A stretch of DNA of 64,000 bases. Origin: Microtetraspora malaysiensis. GTDB lineage: Bacteria > Actinomycetota > Actinomycetes > Streptosporangiales > Streptosporangiaceae. The stretch spans positions 124,001 to 188,000 of the forward strand of contig NZ_BBYJ01000008.1 of NCBI RefSeq assembly GCF_001528665.1. Direction: 5' to 3'. The translations under genes were made by a program, and so were the position numbers. Each line of letters begins with the position of its first letter. The stretch's first letter is position 1. Positions 14,763 to 20,065 of the stretch are shown one piece after another. The notes beneath the pieces were generated by a model that ran no database searches, was not told the origin of the DNA, and saw only the letters and a program-made list of their open reading frames with translations.

Positions 14763-14811
14763 GGCGGCCCGCCTTCCGCAGCGAAGCGGCGGCCGGCGTC
14801 AGCGGGCCGCC
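14763..14811. terminator. hairpin between convergent rhodanese and CHAT genes
   Basis: GGCGGCCCGC (14763-14772) is exactly complementary to GCGGGCCGCC (14802-14811), with a smaller CCGC/GCGG hairpin inside the loop. It spans the gap between two converging genes and the last codons of the CHAT gene, so it can act on both strands. Confidence 0.45.
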
Positions 14812-17258
14812 AGCCGGAGATCTCCCGCGCCGAAGCACACGAAACCCGGCACATCGGTCGCATCAGCCGCCCGGGCGAGCGCCTCGGCCGGCGTGCGCCC
14901 CTCCCTGAGGAGCGGGTGGAACACCCCCATCAGCGCCGGCGCCTCCTCGTCGCGTACCGGCACCACGCCGGCGATCACGCACCGGACGCCCCGGTCGAGG
15001 AACGCGCCGGCCAGCCCGAGGACGGCTCCGTCCGCCGGGGCGTGCGCCATGCCCGCCTCGCACGCCGAGAGGATCACCAGCCTCGGCATCCGGTCCAGCC
15101 GGGCCAGGTCGTAGGCCATCAGCGGCCCGTCGTCGAGCGTGATCCGGGACAGCAGTGGGCCGCGCGGCGAGAAGGTCCCGTGCGCGGCGACGTGCAGCAC
15201 GTCGGCGCGGCCGAGGGCGGCGAGCACCGCCGCCCTCGTCGGGTCCACCCGGACCGCGCCCGGATGCGCCCGGACGACGGCGTCCGCCTCGACCGCCGCG
15301 TGCTCCAGCCCCGGCCCGGCCACCGCCACGACCGCGGGTTCCCGTACCGGAGGCGCCTCCGGCCCGGCGAGCCAGGAGGACGCGCTCGCGGCCACGGACA
15401 CGGCGCGGCCCCGCAGGGACGGGAGCAGCGGCCAGGGCAGGGTGTGCAGGGCGCCGGTCGGCACGATCGTCACCGGCCCGGCGGGCACGCCGAGCGGTCC
15501 GAGCAGGGCGTCGTCGAGCGCCGCGAGATCGCGGTCGAGGCCGCTCTCGGCCGCCACGTCGCGCAGGTTGCGCCGGCGCAGCGCGTAGCGGACCCGGACC
15601 GTGGCCTCGGCCGCCGCCGGGTAGGAGCCGAGCCGCCGCAGGACGCTCCGGCCGGACGTCACCAGCACGCCCGTGAGGTCGGCGTCACTGCGCACCAACT
15701 CGATCAGCGCCCCCTCGGAGGCGGGTCCCGCCTCGGCCGGGAGACACGGCTCCGGAGTCACCCGTACGAGCGCCCGCCGGCGTTCGGAGCAGGCGAGCAC
15801 GGTCCACGGGTCGCCGCCTTCCAGCGCGAGCCCTACGCAGAAGCGGCCGAGATCCTCGGCGGACCGGGCGGCGTACGCGCGCGCCTCGACGGGAGCGGCG
15901 GCCTCGCCGTTCGCGGAGGCGGCCGGGTGCGGCGCGAGCGCCGCCGCCACGCCCGCGCGGGCCGCGTTCAGCGCCCCGGCAAGGTCCCCGTCGAGGCGCC
16001 GCAGCACGGCCAGCGCGTGCTGCCGGACCACGGCCGGGGCGGCGGAGCGGGCCAGGAGCGTCAGCCGGTCGCGCGCCGTGGGCAGGTCACCCATCGCCAT
16101 GGCCGCCTCCGCGGCGGTCAGGCGGAGCGCGGCCGCGTCGGACGCCGCGCCGCCGCCGTCGAGGTCGCGCGCGCAGGCCAGCATCTCGGCGAGCAGCCCG
16201 GGGGTCGGCCCGTCCAGCGCGAGCCGGGCGCGCAGCGCCACCTCGGTCGCGAGCGGCGCCCGGGCGGTCCGCCCCTGCCGTACCAGTTCCGACCGCGCAG
16301 CCTCGGCCGAGGCGCGGGCGTCCGCGGCCGCCCCGGTGAGCAGCTCGACCTGGGACAGCAGCAGCCGGGCGTCCGCGAGCCCGGCCTGCGCCCCGGACCC
16401 GGCGAGATCCGGGACGGCCCGCTCCAGCAGCGTGCGGGCCTCCCCGAGCAGCCGCGCCTCGACCAGCGCGTGCGCGAAGTCGGCGCGCATCGCGGCCAGC
16501 CGCTCGGGATAGCCGAACAGCGTGGCCTCCGCGGCCCGATAACTCTCGAACGCTCCCGAGATGTCGCCACGCCGCGCGGCCACGAACGGCAGGTTGCCCT
16601 CGGCGAGCATGGCGAGGTGGCCGAGCCCCGCCTCCCTGGCGATCCGCGCGCACGCCGACAGGTCCGCCTCGGCCCGCGCGTACTCCTCCAGATAGGTACG
16701 GGCGACGCCCCGGTTCAGCAGCCCGCCCGCGTGGAACCGGGGGTCGCCGCCCAGCCCGCCGAGCGCCTTGTCGCAGTGCCGTACGGCGTCGCGGAAGCGG
16801 CCGAGCAGGATGAGCGCGCCGGAGCGCTGGACACCGAGCCGGGCCAGATCGACGCCGGTGAGGTCACGCTCGGCGAGGTCGGCCAGCCGCAGCCCGCGCT
16901 CGGGGTCGCCGAGCTCGGCCACGATGGTCACCAGCGACAGTCGCGCCTGCGCCACCCGGTTCGGGAAGTCCGCGCCGACGGTCACGGCCCGTTCGAGCCG
17001 TTCGACGGCGAGGTCGATGTCGCCCAGCTCGCGGGCCGCGAGGGCCGCCGCCCGCAGGGCCACCGGGACCGCCTCGGCGCACCGCCGGGCGCCAGGCGGT
17101 TCCGCCTCCGCTTCGGCCAGGACGGCGCGGGCCGCCACCTCGGCGAGCTCGGGATCGGTGGCCGACAGCCAGACCGCGCGCTCGGCCCGGGCCAGCGGGG
17201 CCGCCTCATCGCCACCCGGACCGACGTCGGCCGGAGCGCCGGGGTTCACGGCGGTCAA
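14799..17258 (-). CDS. CHAT-domain (caspase-like) protease with TPR-like N-terminus
   Basis: 819 residues. About 1-500 is an Ala/Leu-rich helical array (repeats such as ARTYLEEYARAEADLSACAR and AALRAAALAARELGDIDLA) of TPR type. The C-terminal CHAT domain has the full cysteine-protease dyad: His693 in HVAAHGTF and Cys733 in LVILSACEAG. A Gly-rich GLAGAFLDRGVRCVIAGVVPV strand follows, as in separase-related CHAT proteins. No signal peptide or membrane segment, so it is cytosolic. The start is TTG 17258, overlapping the preceding TGA (TTGA); GTG 17249 is an alternative. It is the last gene of an operon with a sigma factor and a subtilase, implying a proteolytic signalling role; the substrate is unknown. 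Confidence 0.85.
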   Translation of the reverse strand: MTAVNPGAPADVGPGGDEAAPLARAERAVWLSATDPELAEVAARAVLAEAEAEPPGARRCAEAVPVALRAAALAARELGDIDLAVERLERAVTVGADFPNRVAQARLSLVTIVAELGDPERGLRLADLAERDLTGVDLARLGVQRSGALILLGRFRDAVRHCDKALGGLGGDPRFHAGGLLNRGVARTYLEEYARAEADLSACARIAREAGLGHLAMLAEGNLPFVAARRGDISGAFESYRAAEATLFGYPERLAAMRADFAHALVEARLLGEARTLLERAVPDLAGSGAQAGLADARLLLSQVELLTGAAADARASAEAARSELVRQGRTARAPLATEVALRARLALDGPTPGLLAEMLACARDLDGGGAASDAAALRLTAAEAAMAMGDLPTARDRLTLLARSAAPAVVRQHALAVLRRLDGDLAGALNAARAGVAAALAPHPAASANGEAAAPVEARAYAARSAEDLGRFCVGLALEGGDPWTVLACSERRRALVRVTPEPCLPAEAGPASEGALIELVRSDADLTGVLVTSGRSVLRRLGSYPAAAEATVRVRYALRRRNLRDVAAESGLDRDLAALDDALLGPLGVPAGPVTIVPTGALHTLPWPLLPSLRGRAVSVAASASSWLAGPEAPPVREPAVVAVAGPGLEHAAVEADAVVRAHPGAVRVDPTRAAVLAALGRADVLHVAAHGTFSPRGPLLSRITLDDGPLMAYDLARLDRMPRLVILSACEAGMAHAPADGAVLGLAGAFLDRGVRCVIAGVVPVRDEEAPALMGVFHPLLREGRTPAEALARAADATDVPGFVCFGAGDLRLAAR

Positions 17259-17713
17259 TCGCGGACGTGGAGCCAGCGCGTGGCCACCGGAGCACGACCG
17301 GGCCGGTGGCAGACCACGCTGACCCAGCCGGGAGGCAGGCCGGTCACCGCGAAGTGCCCCGTCTCGGACGGGACGCGGCTGCTGCCGGCGCCCGGGGTGC
17401 GGACCTCGATCCTCGTTCCCGGGCCGGGAGCGGGGGACACCTGGCCGGCCACGTCGAGGCGGCCGTCGGCGACGGTCACCTCGACGTCGAGGGTGAGGCC
17501 GTCCGCGTCGAACCGGTGCATCGCGGGCCGTCCCTCTGAGCGGGCGCCCACGCCCGGCCCGACCTCGGCAGGGCTCGCCACCACGGCGCCGGGCAGCCGC
17601 AGCGCGAAGGCGGCGCGCGCGGAGGCGGACACACGGCCCGGCACCGGATCGGCCCCGGCGGCGATCCGCAGCGCCGCCAGCAGATACGTGGGCAGGTGGT
17701 CGTCGTCGGTCAC
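17255..17713 (-). CDS. small beta-rich protein coupled to sigma factor and CHAT protease
   Basis: A 152-residue protein starting at GTG 17713, which overlaps the sigma-factor stop (GTGA); its own stop overlaps the CHAT start. I do not recognise a named family. The N-terminal 60 residues are Ala-rich and probably helical (LPTYLLAALRIAAGADPVPG). The rest alternates beta strands and turns, with TGHFAVTGLPPGWVSVVC giving the look of a carboxypeptidase-regulatory or CNA-B-like beta sandwich. The frame stays open far upstream but that part is antisense-like shadow over the sigma gene. The strict double overlap shows it is made in fixed ratio with its neighbours; it could be the CHAT protease substrate, an adaptor, or an anti-sigma-like partner. 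Confidence 0.75.
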   Translation of the reverse strand: MTDDDHLPTYLLAALRIAAGADPVPGRVSASARAAFALRLPGAVVASPAEVGPGVGARSEGRPAMHRFDADGLTLDVEVTVADGRLDVAGQVSPAPGPGTRIEVRTPGAGSSRVPSETGHFAVTGLPPGWVSVVCHRPGRAPVATRWLHVRD

Positions 17714-18240
17714 CGTTCCTCCTCGATCAGCGCCCTCAGCCGGGACATGCACCGGGAGCGGGTCGGCCCGATGCTCCCCATCGGGAGGCCGAGCCGCATG
17801 GAGATCTGGGCGTACTTCGCGTCGGGGTTCAGCGCGTACAGGCGGAGCAGTGAACGGCACGGCTCGGCCAGCCCGTCCAGCCGCAGCCAGAGCCGCCGGC
17901 CGAACTCGGCGTCCACCACGGACGCGGCGGGATCGGGGACGAGCACTTCCGGGAGCGCGTCCGCCGCCGGGCGCTCTCCCCGGGACCGCCGGGCCAGCCG
18001 GACCGCCTCGTGCCGGGTCGTCGTGATCAGCCAGGCGCCGATCCGCTCGGGATCGCGGATGCCGTCCAGGCTCTCGACCATCCGCAGCCACGCGCCCTGG
18101 ACGGCGTCGGCCGCGTCGGCCGGGCCGAGCCCGCACGCGCGGGCCACCGCCCACATCCGGCCGTCGAAGCGGGTGACGAGCTCCTCCCAGGCCGCCTGGT
18201 CCAGGCCCGGGAGCGTCTTCTCAGAGGGCATGTCCGTCAC
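17710..18240 (-). CDS. RNA polymerase sigma factor of ECF type
   Basis: 176 residues with region 2 (VTRFDGRMWAVARACGLGPADAADAVQGAWLRM, where the ADAVQGAW core is the -10 recognition helix region) and region 4 (LRLYALNPDAKYAQISMRLG, then MGSIGPTRSRCMSRLRAL, the -35 recognition helix). No membrane anti-sigma gene is next to it. Instead it is coupled by GTGA overlap to a small beta-rich protein and then the CHAT protease, so its control may be proteolytic. Start is GTG 18240 (or ATG 18231). It lies 67 bases downstream of the subtilase on the same strand. Confidence 0.85.
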   Translation of the reverse strand: MTDMPSEKTLPGLDQAAWEELVTRFDGRMWAVARACGLGPADAADAVQGAWLRMVESLDGIRDPERIGAWLITTTRHEAVRLARRSRGERPAADALPEVLVPDPAASVVDAEFGRRLWLRLDGLAEPCRSLLRLYALNPDAKYAQISMRLGLPMGSIGPTRSRCMSRLRALIEEER

Positions 18241-18307
18241 CCCACGCGTCGGAAAGGATGCGAAGCGCGATCACCCTATCGGCCCCGGCCGCGCCCGGCG
18301 GGGCCTT

Positions 18308-19375
18308 TCACCCGACCGGTCCGACCGCCCGCTCCTCGTCGTGGTCCCGCCGCCGCGGCACCGCCACGCCGAGGCCGGGCATGCGCCGGCCGTCCAGGAG
18401 CGCGTGCCGTACGGCGCGGGCGGGTGGCATCTCCCGGCAGAGCCGCGCCACCGCTCCCGTGACGACCGCGGCCGCGAACGACGTGCCGCTCCACGTCGCG
18501 TAGCCGTGGAAGGCCCCGTGCTCCAGGAAGCTGCTCGTCATCCCCACACCCTCGGCGCAGGCGCCGACCCACGGCCCGTGCGCCGAGAAGGAGGCCCGTG
18601 CCGCGCCGTCGAGCGCGCCGGCCGCGACCACGTCCGGCAGCGCCGCGGGCCAGAACGGGCGGGAGGAAGCGGTGTTCCCCGCGCACGCGACCACCGCCGG
18701 GAAGGGGCGCAACGCCTCGGCAACCCCGAGCGGCGGCTCGTCGTCCACGGTGTAACCGCCCAGGGAGAGGTTGAGGACGTCGATCCGCTCACCGCCCAGT
18801 CGCGCCAGCGCGCGCAGCAGCGTCGCCTGGTCGCTCACCCCGTGGCTGTCGAGGACCCGTACGGCACGCAACCGGACGCCCGGGGCCTCCCGCAGGATCA
18901 GCCCGGCCACGAACGTGCCGTGCCCGGCCTGCTCGTCGAGCACCCCGTCGTGGTCGGCGTCGGCGATCTCCGCGACATCGTCGGAGTACCACTCGGCGAG
19001 CCACGGGTGCGGGGCCAGCCCGGTGTCCAGTACACCGACCGTGACGTCCCACGGCTCCTCCCGCGCGTACGACACGGGCCGCGCCGGGACCGGCCGGCCG
19101 CCGGGGCCGCCGAACAGCAGCGGCTGACCGAGGAGGACGTGGTTGGGCGAGGCGTGGTGTCCCCGGTCGCGCAGTCCGGCCGCGAGGTCGAGGACGTCGG
19201 GGTCGGGCGAGAGCCGCAAGTGGTGGACCGGCCCGGCCGGGACGGCGGCGACCGTCCATCGGGAGATCGCGCTCAGTGACGAGGTGATCAGCTCTCCGGG
19301 GCGGATGAGGGCGGGGCGTCCGGGCTTGGGCTCGACGACCCGGACCGCGGGGAGATCGCCTGCGGGTGGGCACAT
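18308..19375 (-). CDS. S8-family (subtilisin-like) serine protease, apparently cytoplasmic
   Basis: 355 residues with the complete subtilase triad: Asp117 (VGVLDTGL), His152 (GHGTFVAG), oxyanion Asn233 (ACAGN) and Ser299 (WSGTSFAAA). There is no signal peptide and no transmembrane helix, unlike most subtilases. The N-terminal about 105 residues (MCPPAGDLPA to VSYAREEPW) precede the catalytic domain and may be a regulatory prodomain. First gene of the operon subtilase / sigma factor / small protein / CHAT protease. Two cytosolic proteases of different classes flank a transcription factor. Start at ATG 19375; the ribosome binding site is not obvious. Confidence 0.85.
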   Translation of the reverse strand: MCPPAGDLPAVRVVEPKPGRPALIRPGELITSSLSAISRWTVAAVPAGPVHHLRLSPDPDVLDLAAGLRDRGHHASPNHVLLGQPLLFGGPGGRPVPARPVSYAREEPWDVTVGVLDTGLAPHPWLAEWYSDDVAEIADADHDGVLDEQAGHGTFVAGLILREAPGVRLRAVRVLDSHGVSDQATLLRALARLGGERIDVLNLSLGGYTVDDEPPLGVAEALRPFPAVVACAGNTASSRPFWPAALPDVVAAGALDGAARASFSAHGPWVGACAEGVGMTSSFLEHGAFHGYATWSGTSFAAAVVTGAVARLCREMPPARAVRHALLDGRRMPGLGVAVPRRRDHDEERAVGPVG

Positions 19376-19567
19376 GGGGGTGGCCCTTCGCGTCGGGAAT
19401 CTTACTGAGCGAAGTCTTTCATATACAGATCGCTGTCAAGTCTTAATCCGTATGACCCCCCTCTGGTGCCTGGCTGCGACGGACGGTAGTCTCTCCTTCA
19501 GTCACTTGTGATCATCCCAGTGTGAGGCCGTTGGGGAAGGCGCACCTCATGCGATTTGGGAGGTCCG
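19376..19567. promoter_or_regulatory. divergent promoter region between subtilase operon and DUF3145 gene
   Basis: The segment 19405-19450 is clearly AT-richer than its surroundings. On the minus strand a TTGACA-like -35 box lies at 19434-19439, but no good -10 is found at 16-18 bases. It is the only place where transcripts for the four-gene protease operon can begin, so it should hold their promoter and any operator. The exact boxes are a guess. Confidence 0.35.
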
Positions 19568-20065
19568 GTGGCAGCTGCTCGTGGCGTGCTGTACGTCCAC
19601 TCGGCTCAGCCTGCGTTGTGCCCGCATATCGAGTGGGCTGTCGCAGGCGTTCTTGGCGTACCCGTCGATCTGACGTGGACCGCTCAGCCAGCCGCGCCCG
19701 GGGCGGTACGTGCCCAGGCCGAGTGGGAGGGGCGTCCGGGGACGGCGGCGGCGATCTCGTCATCGCTCATGGCCTGGCAGCGCATCCGATTCGAGATCAC
19801 CGAGGATGCCTCGCCCGGCGTGGACGGCTCCCGATACGCGTACACACCGACGCTCGGCGCCTTCACGGCCGTCGTCGGCGCGAACGGCGACATCCTGATC
19901 ACCGAGGACCGGTTGCGCACCGCCATGCTCATGGCCGCGCTGGGCCGGGTCGTCCTGGAGGACGAGCTGGACCGCCTGCTCGGCAAGCAGTGGGACGAGG
20001 AACTGGAGTCTTTTCGGTACGCCGGTGAGGGCGCACCCGTCCGCTGGCTGCACGCGGCCGTCTGA
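19568..20065 (+). CDS. DUF3145 family protein
   Basis: 165 residues, starting at GTG 19568 with GGGAGG five bases upstream. The N-terminus ARGVLYVHSAQPALCPHIEWAV and the later ADAFTAVVGANGDIL-like and LGKQWDEELESFRYAG segments are the hallmarks of the actinobacterial DUF3145 family. It is encoded next to the fatty acid synthase and acyl-CoA carboxylase genes in Streptomyces too. Function is unknown; the constant neighbourhood suggests a link to lipid synthesis. It is convergent with the carboxylase gene and both end at a strong shared hairpin. Confidence 0.85.
   Translation: MAAARGVLYVHSAQPALCPHIEWAVAGVLGVPVDLTWTAQPAAPGAVRAQAEWEGRPGTAAAISSSLMAWQRIRFEITEDASPGVDGSRYAYTPTLGAFTAVVGANGDILITEDRLRTAMLMAALGRVVLEDELDRLLGKQWDEELESFRYAGEGAPVRWLHAAV

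Follow-up and report, generated by a model that had tools for sequence, protein, structure and literature searches.

The locus described here raises the question of what task could unite two proteases of different catalytic classes with a sigma factor. It lies in the 8.8-Mb genome of Microtetraspora malaysiensis, in a stretch of 64,000 nucleotides (G000:C8:124001-188000) that was analyzed as a whole and is called the window below. The minus strand encodes, in sequence, a subtilisin-like (S8) protease or subtilase, a sigma factor resembling the extracytoplasmic function (ECF) type, a small protein and a protease with tetratricopeptide repeats and a CHAT domain (TPR-CHAT). An earlier reading of the sequence, hereafter the original prediction, had placed this four-gene set here, and coordinates together with family searches bore it out (Table 1). 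We propose, with a confidence slightly short of even, that the locus is a cytosolic protease-operated sigma switch in which the CHAT protease cuts the small partner of the sigma factor after Arg58. The evidence computed here comprises linkage of the genes in many arrangements, a constant sigma-small pair, conserved active sites, predicted disorder of a linker in the small protein, and a near-invariant Arg58 in that linker which is associated with the CHAT protein.

The small protein carries a near-invariant arginine in a flexible linker

We compared the window with 220 further stretches, giving 221 loci that were selected by the presence of the small or the sigma gene. Duplicates were retained in the counts over these loci (seven locus pairs had an identical small gene, leaving 210 distinct out of 217), and the broken small gene of locus L163 was counted as two open reading frame (ORF) pieces. 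In Pfam the small protein matched CarboxypepD_reg only, and this below threshold; PF13620 matched 24 of 62 members of the small family at E<=0.01. An AlphaFold2 model generated from alignment A5 (62 sequences) had a mean predicted local distance difference test (pLDDT) score of 82 and contained two helices (residues 9-20 and 26-39), a linker at about 40-63 and an Ig/FN3-like beta-sandwich (64-150). The eight-strand sandwich was mostly modelled at pLDDT 90-96, while linker residues 43-45 and 47-59 fell below 50. A fold search with the small protein returned general Ig/FN3-like sandwiches only, mainly over residues 61-152, and barely tested the helices. We noted that one homologue (L089:8359-9534) is 392 residues long by its assigned start, with additional sequence separating the two segments that match.

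Among 131 aligned members, the best-conserved residues were Gly119 in the sandwich (129/131) and Arg58 in the linker (128/130), and these were the sole invariant columns of A5. The linker around Arg58 varied in length and its other positions were much less constant. Arg58 was found in 211 of the 218 ORF pieces by alignment and in 214 after inspection. In the 211 aligned copies the residue at -2 was Gly or Ala in 141, that at -1 was mostly Val, Leu, Thr or Ala with Val the commonest (129). At +1, 193 copies had Gly, Ser or Ala, and one (L276) had proline. A conserved motif of this kind in a linker predicted to be disordered would fit the pattern of a protease site. The small protein showed no sign of an enzyme function, and with its helix-linker-sandwich architecture it looks like a sigma partner and protease target.

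The four genes are linked, and the sigma-small pair is constant

All four families were present at 136 of the 221 loci, in ten simple orders or strand patterns and four more with extra copies. The commonest were S8-sigma-small-CHAT (49 loci) and CHAT divergent from S8-sigma-small (37 loci). Repeated reshuffling with retention of the four genes is strong evidence that they share a task. This tabulation of neighbours, which the original prediction had called for, indicated that the genes are linked rather than rarely adjacent. Within the set, 210 of 218 small genes were immediately preceded by a sigma gene of the same strand. The pair also occurred at 32 loci that had neither a CHAT nor a subtilase gene in range, and it was kept at L151, L198, L257 and L280, in whose genomes no CHAT gene was found. 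Since the pair persists even in genomes that yield no CHAT, the small protein appears to serve the sigma factor.

A scan of named genomes with the sigma alignment extended these observations. The best 80 of 579 confirmed sigma loci included members of the Streptosporangiales, Micromonosporales, Pseudonocardiales, Catenulisporales, Frankiales, Kribbella, Acidimicrobiia, Thermoleophilia and Nitriliruptoria, as assigned from record titles. All four families were called by our own gene caller at 41 of these 80 loci. Of 70 small genes there, 67 had the sigma gene directly upstream on the same strand; for the other three the gene caller missed the sigma gene, though a profile match places it just upstream. 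At another locus (L131, 6242-17681), the S8-CHAT-small set was duplicated with a single sigma factor.

The full ECF model TIGR02937 covered residues 17-170 of the sigma factor, and region 4 gave no Pfam match. We place the protein provisionally in group ECF54 by the match of its neighbourhood to the description available in PMC8999054; in the window the sigma gene stands beside those for a subtilase, a carboxypeptidase-regulatory-like protein and a CHAT protein. The "carboxypeptidase" of that neighbourhood is, by our own equation, probably the small protein with its CarboxypepD_reg-like sandwich. No classical anti-sigma gene was seen in the window operon, in which the small protein is the candidate.

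The CHAT protein has an intact active site and a separase-like fold

The CHAT protein consists of a helical solenoid (residues 21-498) and a CHAT region (517-819) with the catalytic residues H693 and C733. Both were present in every one of the 165 ORFs that extend to the site (169 tested). D710 and D770 were near-invariant as well (D770 in 157 of 165); D770 may correspond to a residue of separase and is a candidate for the S1 pocket. In the subtilase the catalytic residues are D117, H152 and S299, with N234 as the oxyanion residue, and the Asp, His, Asn and Ser were kept in 141 of 141 aligned ORFs. The original prediction had named His693, Cys733 and Ser299 and had described complete active sites without export signals; the residues were found at these positions and are conserved across homologues. 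Neither an export signal nor a membrane segment was evident in any of the four proteins by Kyte-Doolittle analysis (19-residue windows, maximum mean 1.44).

A model of the CHAT protein built from 45 sequences had a pLDDT of 89 and a predicted template modelling score of 0.87. When this model was searched with Foldseek, the best matches included human separase (E 6e-15), DdvA (7e-13) and Csx29 (3e-12). Alignment with VIA-align gave Z 28.2 for Craspase (7y84_C; root-mean-square deviation 8.1 over 485 residues) and Z 26.7 for the separase domain ctSPD (3.3 A over 302 residues, 20% identity). At the level of sequence, the CHAT region alone gave no match at all, and separase was absent from the first 60 of 206 profile matches. 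The protein is not a Csx29, because it scored 21.5 bits against the NCBIfam Csx29 model, far below the cut-off of 300. We also noted a second, weaker CHAT-domain gene in the same genome (G000:C5:124055-124915).

DdvA was among the best fold matches and was the sole CHAT-region match within those 60 profile matches. It is titled a transmembrane anti-sigma factor, and the sigma factor DdvS of Myxococcus xanthus is active once DdvA is inactivated, according to the available text of PMC4374960. The CHAT protein might thus itself be an anti-sigma factor, or the proteases might act on the sigma factor directly, as in the published ECF54 proposal, with the small protein as an adaptor or cofactor. We consider this rather unlikely. 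DdvA is titled a membrane protein whereas the CHAT protein here lacks an evident membrane segment, and the constant neighbour of the sigma gene is the small gene, not the CHAT gene. A fully conserved active site exceeds the needs of an inhibitor, and a near-invariant linker arginine that follows the CHAT gene (see below) is left unexplained.

Arg58 is associated with the CHAT gene

A CHAT gene was present at the locus for 179 of the 218 ORF pieces, and all of these had the arginine, 176 by alignment and three by inspection. The latter (L163, L278 and L279) appeared to lack it through alignment or frameshift artefacts, and the choice of the arginine within the long linker of L278 was a matter of judgement. 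For the 39 pieces without a CHAT gene at the locus, the arginine was at the column in 35 and not in four. Where CHAT was present and the subtilase absent, the arginine was found in 39 of 39. Arg58 showed no such dependence on the subtilase and was kept in 71 of 74 copies with no subtilase at the locus.

We searched the 36 genomes behind the CHAT-less loci for a distant CHAT gene, leaving out L149, which is at a contig end, and L215, a duplicate of L169. All 30 genomes that had the Arg58 motif and no CHAT at the locus encoded a CHAT of the family further off. These distant genes spanned most of the profile in 28 genomes; that of G830 was cut by a contig end and that of G036 covered profile positions 444-869 only. 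In the five genomes without any CHAT match, the arginine was either lost (L084, L198 and L280) or off-consensus (L151 and L257). In the genome of L190, three small genes with the motif had CHAT genes (three in all) close by, and the lone L190 copy was without the arginine. The association between Arg58 and a CHAT gene in the genome gave Fisher p-values of 1.6e-5 by consensus and 0.005 when any arginine at the column was counted. From this fate of Arg58 we argue that the CHAT protein acts on the small protein, and the pattern lends indirect support to cutting of the small protein by CHAT, as the original prediction had suggested.

Several observations weigh against cleavage after Arg58. There were only about three independent losses of the arginine, because four CHAT-less members (L151, L198, L257 and L280) form one clade on the sigma tree (support 0.93), from which L084 is missing as it has no sigma gene. 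The CHAT-less members that lost the arginine or its consensus are diverged in general, except L084; genome G802 is 63% complete, and the L198 stretch stops 2.7 kb downstream. If any arginine is counted, it is kept in two of the five CHAT-less genomes. The consensus was defined after the data were seen, and the arginine lay outside it in seven CHAT-bearing copies (L083, L158, L195, L268, L273, L274 and L275); two further off-consensus copies with CHAT were alignment artefacts. Since several of the 30 genomes carry two or more small genes, the copy counted may have a partner other than the distant CHAT. The modelled fold alone does not predict specificity for arginine, as we did not establish such specificity for Csx29, whose site is given as residues 427-429. 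Csx30 and the small protein had no profile match, and Csx30 was absent from the listed fold matches of the small protein. Finally, ECF54 is stated to lack an anti-sigma factor in the accessible text of PMC8999054.

The same association of the arginine with CHAT would arise if the small protein were a securin-like inhibitor of CHAT, with Arg58 as an uncut pseudosubstrate in the S1 pocket and the sigma factor sensing or controlling the complex. In yeast securin an arginine sits in the S1 pocket of separase without being cut, which an adjacent proline is thought to prevent, and unbound securin is unstructured, as the linker is predicted to be (PMC7863939, available text). Here the +1 residue is Gly, Ser or Ala in nearly all copies, the one proline being that of L276, whose genome (G036) has a partial CHAT match, and the predicted disorder of the linker fits a cut site; we therefore hold a securin-like role to be unlikely. 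A role of Arg58 in docking or in contact with nucleic acid, its losses being general decay, is quite improbable. Five of the members in which the arginine or its surroundings changed are indeed diverged (E 4e-9 to 1e-17), and four of them are one clade. Yet L084 is otherwise conserved (E 3e-35) and lost the arginine along with sigma and CHAT, and of the four copies in the L190 genome only the one without CHAT has lost it.

Within its own order the locus keeps a stable chromosomal place

Within the order to which the window belongs, the small gene was detected in 185 of 200 genomes and in 43 of 45 genera. A subtilase resembling that of the window was found in 142 of the 200, a count whose weak end includes unrelated subtilases. 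Among 40 stretches around the small gene in this order, 39 had both sigma and CHAT genes and 24 had a subtilase, including a fragment at L101; L084 had neither sigma nor CHAT at the locus. One upstream neighbour cluster recurred at 37 of the 40 loci, and those on the opposite flank, four in number, at 25 to 34. By position and length only, the upstream cluster is taken to be DUF3145 and the others to be rhodanese, phosphodiesterase, DUF5998 and CoA-ligase-type genes. So stable a setting points to the behaviour of a core gene, unlike that of mobile defence genes.

The original prediction had raised conflict or suicide as a plausible reading; in such a module the proteases would kill the infected cell and the sigma factor would add a transcriptional arm. 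CHAT and S8 proteases do occur in defence, and the CHAT protein resembles Craspase. PADLOC returned partial, low-score matches only (BovA, IetS and a generic subtilase model), none of them full-length; the S8 protease matched IetS and CHAT matched BovA, the latter in 30 of 45 family members. The small family is also patchy beyond the order: profile A1 detected it in 28 of 296 genomes across the phylum, and the broader profile A5 in 134 of 394 of the class. Against this stand the presence of the small gene in most genomes of its own order and the conserved chromosomal site, which in the window lies between DUF3145/carboxyl-transferase and rhodanese/phosphodiesterase genes. None of six neighbours scanned was a mobile-element gene, mobile elements not having been searched further. 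An abortive-infection module is quite improbable, and a defence island was not supported.

Subtilase, sigma variants and upstream region

The N-terminal ~100 residues of the subtilase look like a subtilase prodomain, as judged by eye. A lineage of ten loci without the subtilase (L065, L066, L068, L069, L071, L073, L076, L079, L088 and L094) had a diverged sigma region 4, from which the GSIGPTR motif is missing, and wider spacing of the small and CHAT genes; Arg58 was kept, as was the CHAT dyad where the gene was complete. At L101:8509-9012 the subtilase is a fragment while the sigma, small and CHAT genes look intact, and a recent loss of the subtilase is likely. Four loci (L141, L179, L183 and L189) had a sigma gene of this type and no small gene was found there; the sigma genes stood beside large AAA_16 (STAND-like) regulators, three of the four with LuxR or BTAD domains, which are possibly an alternative controller.

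We also looked for autoregulation. The generic pattern GGAA(C/T)-N14-19-CG occurred in 12 of 61 CHAT-S8 intergenic stretches at no common position, against a mean of 4.7 and a maximum of 10 over 100 mononucleotide shuffles. Autoregulation by an ECF-type promoter was not convincing. Footprinting of the upstream region in the window and 21 relatives placed conservation mostly on the DUF3145 side. The intergenic segment at 19430-19575, flanked by the subtilase gene and the divergently oriented DUF3145 gene, was strikingly conserved in the 21 relatives and matched no Rfam family at threshold.

Layout of the locus

Table 1. Coordinates of the four genes and of the proposed cleavage site in the window
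Feature	Position	Strand	Support
S8 (subtilisin-like) peptidase, 355 aa	18308..19375	-	Pfam PF00082 2.4e-24
ECF-type sigma factor, 176 aa	17710..18240	-	Pfam Sigma70_r2 1.5e-09; TIGR02937
Small partner protein (putative), 152 aa	17255..17713	-	AlphaFold2 model; PF13620 in part of family
Arg58 codon of small protein, proposed P1 of CHAT cleavage	17540..17542	-	conservation, pLDDT
TPR-CHAT (separase-like) cysteine peptidase, 819 aa from TTG	14799..17258	-	Pfam PF12770 9e-35

The subtilase gene ends 67 bases before the start of the sigma gene. The original prediction had the last three genes overlapping by 4 bases each. Two overlaps, not three, were recovered: sigma and small share 4 bases, and small and CHAT do so if CHAT starts at TTG. 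The alternative CHAT start, a GTG 5 bases downstream of the small-gene stop, is preferred by the nearest-start rule. When the window was taken together with 39 further loci from its order, exact 4-base overlaps were found in 23 of 40 cases for sigma/small and 16 of 40 for small/CHAT, with starts set by the nearest-start rule, which favours overlaps. Overlap of this kind suggests coupled translation and falls short of the synthesis in fixed proportion claimed earlier.

Proposed mechanism and its meaning

In the mechanism that we propose, the small protein would be the constant companion of the sigma factor and would most likely act as a soluble anti-sigma factor. Its N-terminal helical pair would hold the sigma factor, with an inhibitory sign as we infer, and its C-terminal beta-sandwich would sense or dock. 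The trigger would be a signal read through the TPR solenoid of the CHAT protein, which would then cut the disordered linker after Arg58, part the helices from the sandwich and change sigma activity, to which a regulon would respond. The subtilase may provide an accessory step of activation, trimming or shut-off that is dispensable in many lineages. On a more tentative level, we suggest that a CRISPR-free sigma switch may operate in much of the actinobacterial phylum, with a separase-like CHAT protease freeing or rewiring an ECF sigma factor by one cut after the linker arginine of a misnamed small anti-sigma factor and the subtilase providing a second step, and that it may be a housekeeping relative of Csx29/Csx30 in logic and possibly in descent.

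In the available text of PMC8999054, ECF54 appears among the groups under proteolytic control, and no experiment is cited for it. The present analysis names a likely substrate, protease and bond for that control. If the proposal holds, sigma release by protein cutting of the Craspase type would not be an oddity of clustered regularly interspaced short palindromic repeats (CRISPR) systems; it would be widespread in actinobacteria and vertically kept in the order of the window.

Comparison with known systems

The closest published description is that of ECF54, a group credited to Huang 2015 and Casas-Pastor 2021 and represented by the Geodermatophilus protein SFT86700.1 (as reported in PMC8999054, available text). 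There, proteolytic control without an anti-sigma factor was proposed because a carboxypeptidase, a subtilase and a CHAT protein are conserved in the genetic context. The present locus agrees with ECF54 in having an ECF sigma factor with CHAT, subtilase and "carboxypeptidase" neighbours and differs in that the small protein is a putative sigma partner and protease target. The original prediction had known of no description of this exact gene order. The gene content is known as the ECF54 neighbourhood, in the text available from PMC8999054, and our literature search found no description of the gene order or of the small-protein architecture. Nor did it find an experimental study of the gene set, most subscription journals lying outside the search; the terms "CHAT" and "sigma factor" do not occur in the main text of the conflict-systems paper by Kaur et al. 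The neighbourhood is therefore already known, and what this analysis adds is Arg58, the layout of the small protein and the tie of that protein to the sigma factor.

In Craspase (Csx29/Csx30/CASP-sigma), the TPR-CHAT protease Csx29 cleaves Csx30, an inhibitor that acts by binding an ECF sigma factor; the site is given as residues 427-429 (PMC10028731, available text). The likeness extends to a TPR-CHAT protease with a His/Cys active site, an ECF sigma factor and CHAT fold matches of Z 22-28, and also to a sigma inhibitor with a cut site, which for the present locus is proposed. Unlike Craspase, the present locus has an additional subtilase and a stable chromosomal setting, and no similarity to Csx30 was detected in the small protein. 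No direct-repeat family of at least 23 bases with spacing up to 120, as in a CRISPR array, was found in the whole window, and none of the six scanned neighbours was a Cas protein. In the CalpL/CalpT/CalpS system of type III CRISPR, a protease likewise cuts a small sigma-holding protein, but the protease is a different one, the trigger is a cyclic nucleotide and the system is CRISPR-linked.

DdvA/DdvS resembles the present locus in tying a CHAT-fold protein to an ECF sigma factor; the CHAT protein here differs in lacking an evident membrane segment and in its conserved active site. Separase requires an arginine at P1 (PMC4626109 and PMC7863939, available texts). With the separase/SCC1/securin system our protein shares a helical solenoid joined to a separase-like catalytic domain, recognition of arginine being only proposed here. 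In contrast to separase, it is bacterial and 819 residues long, and its proposed target is a sigma partner, not cohesin. If that target is correct, separase-like cleavage at arginine as a signalling step would gain a bacterial counterpart.

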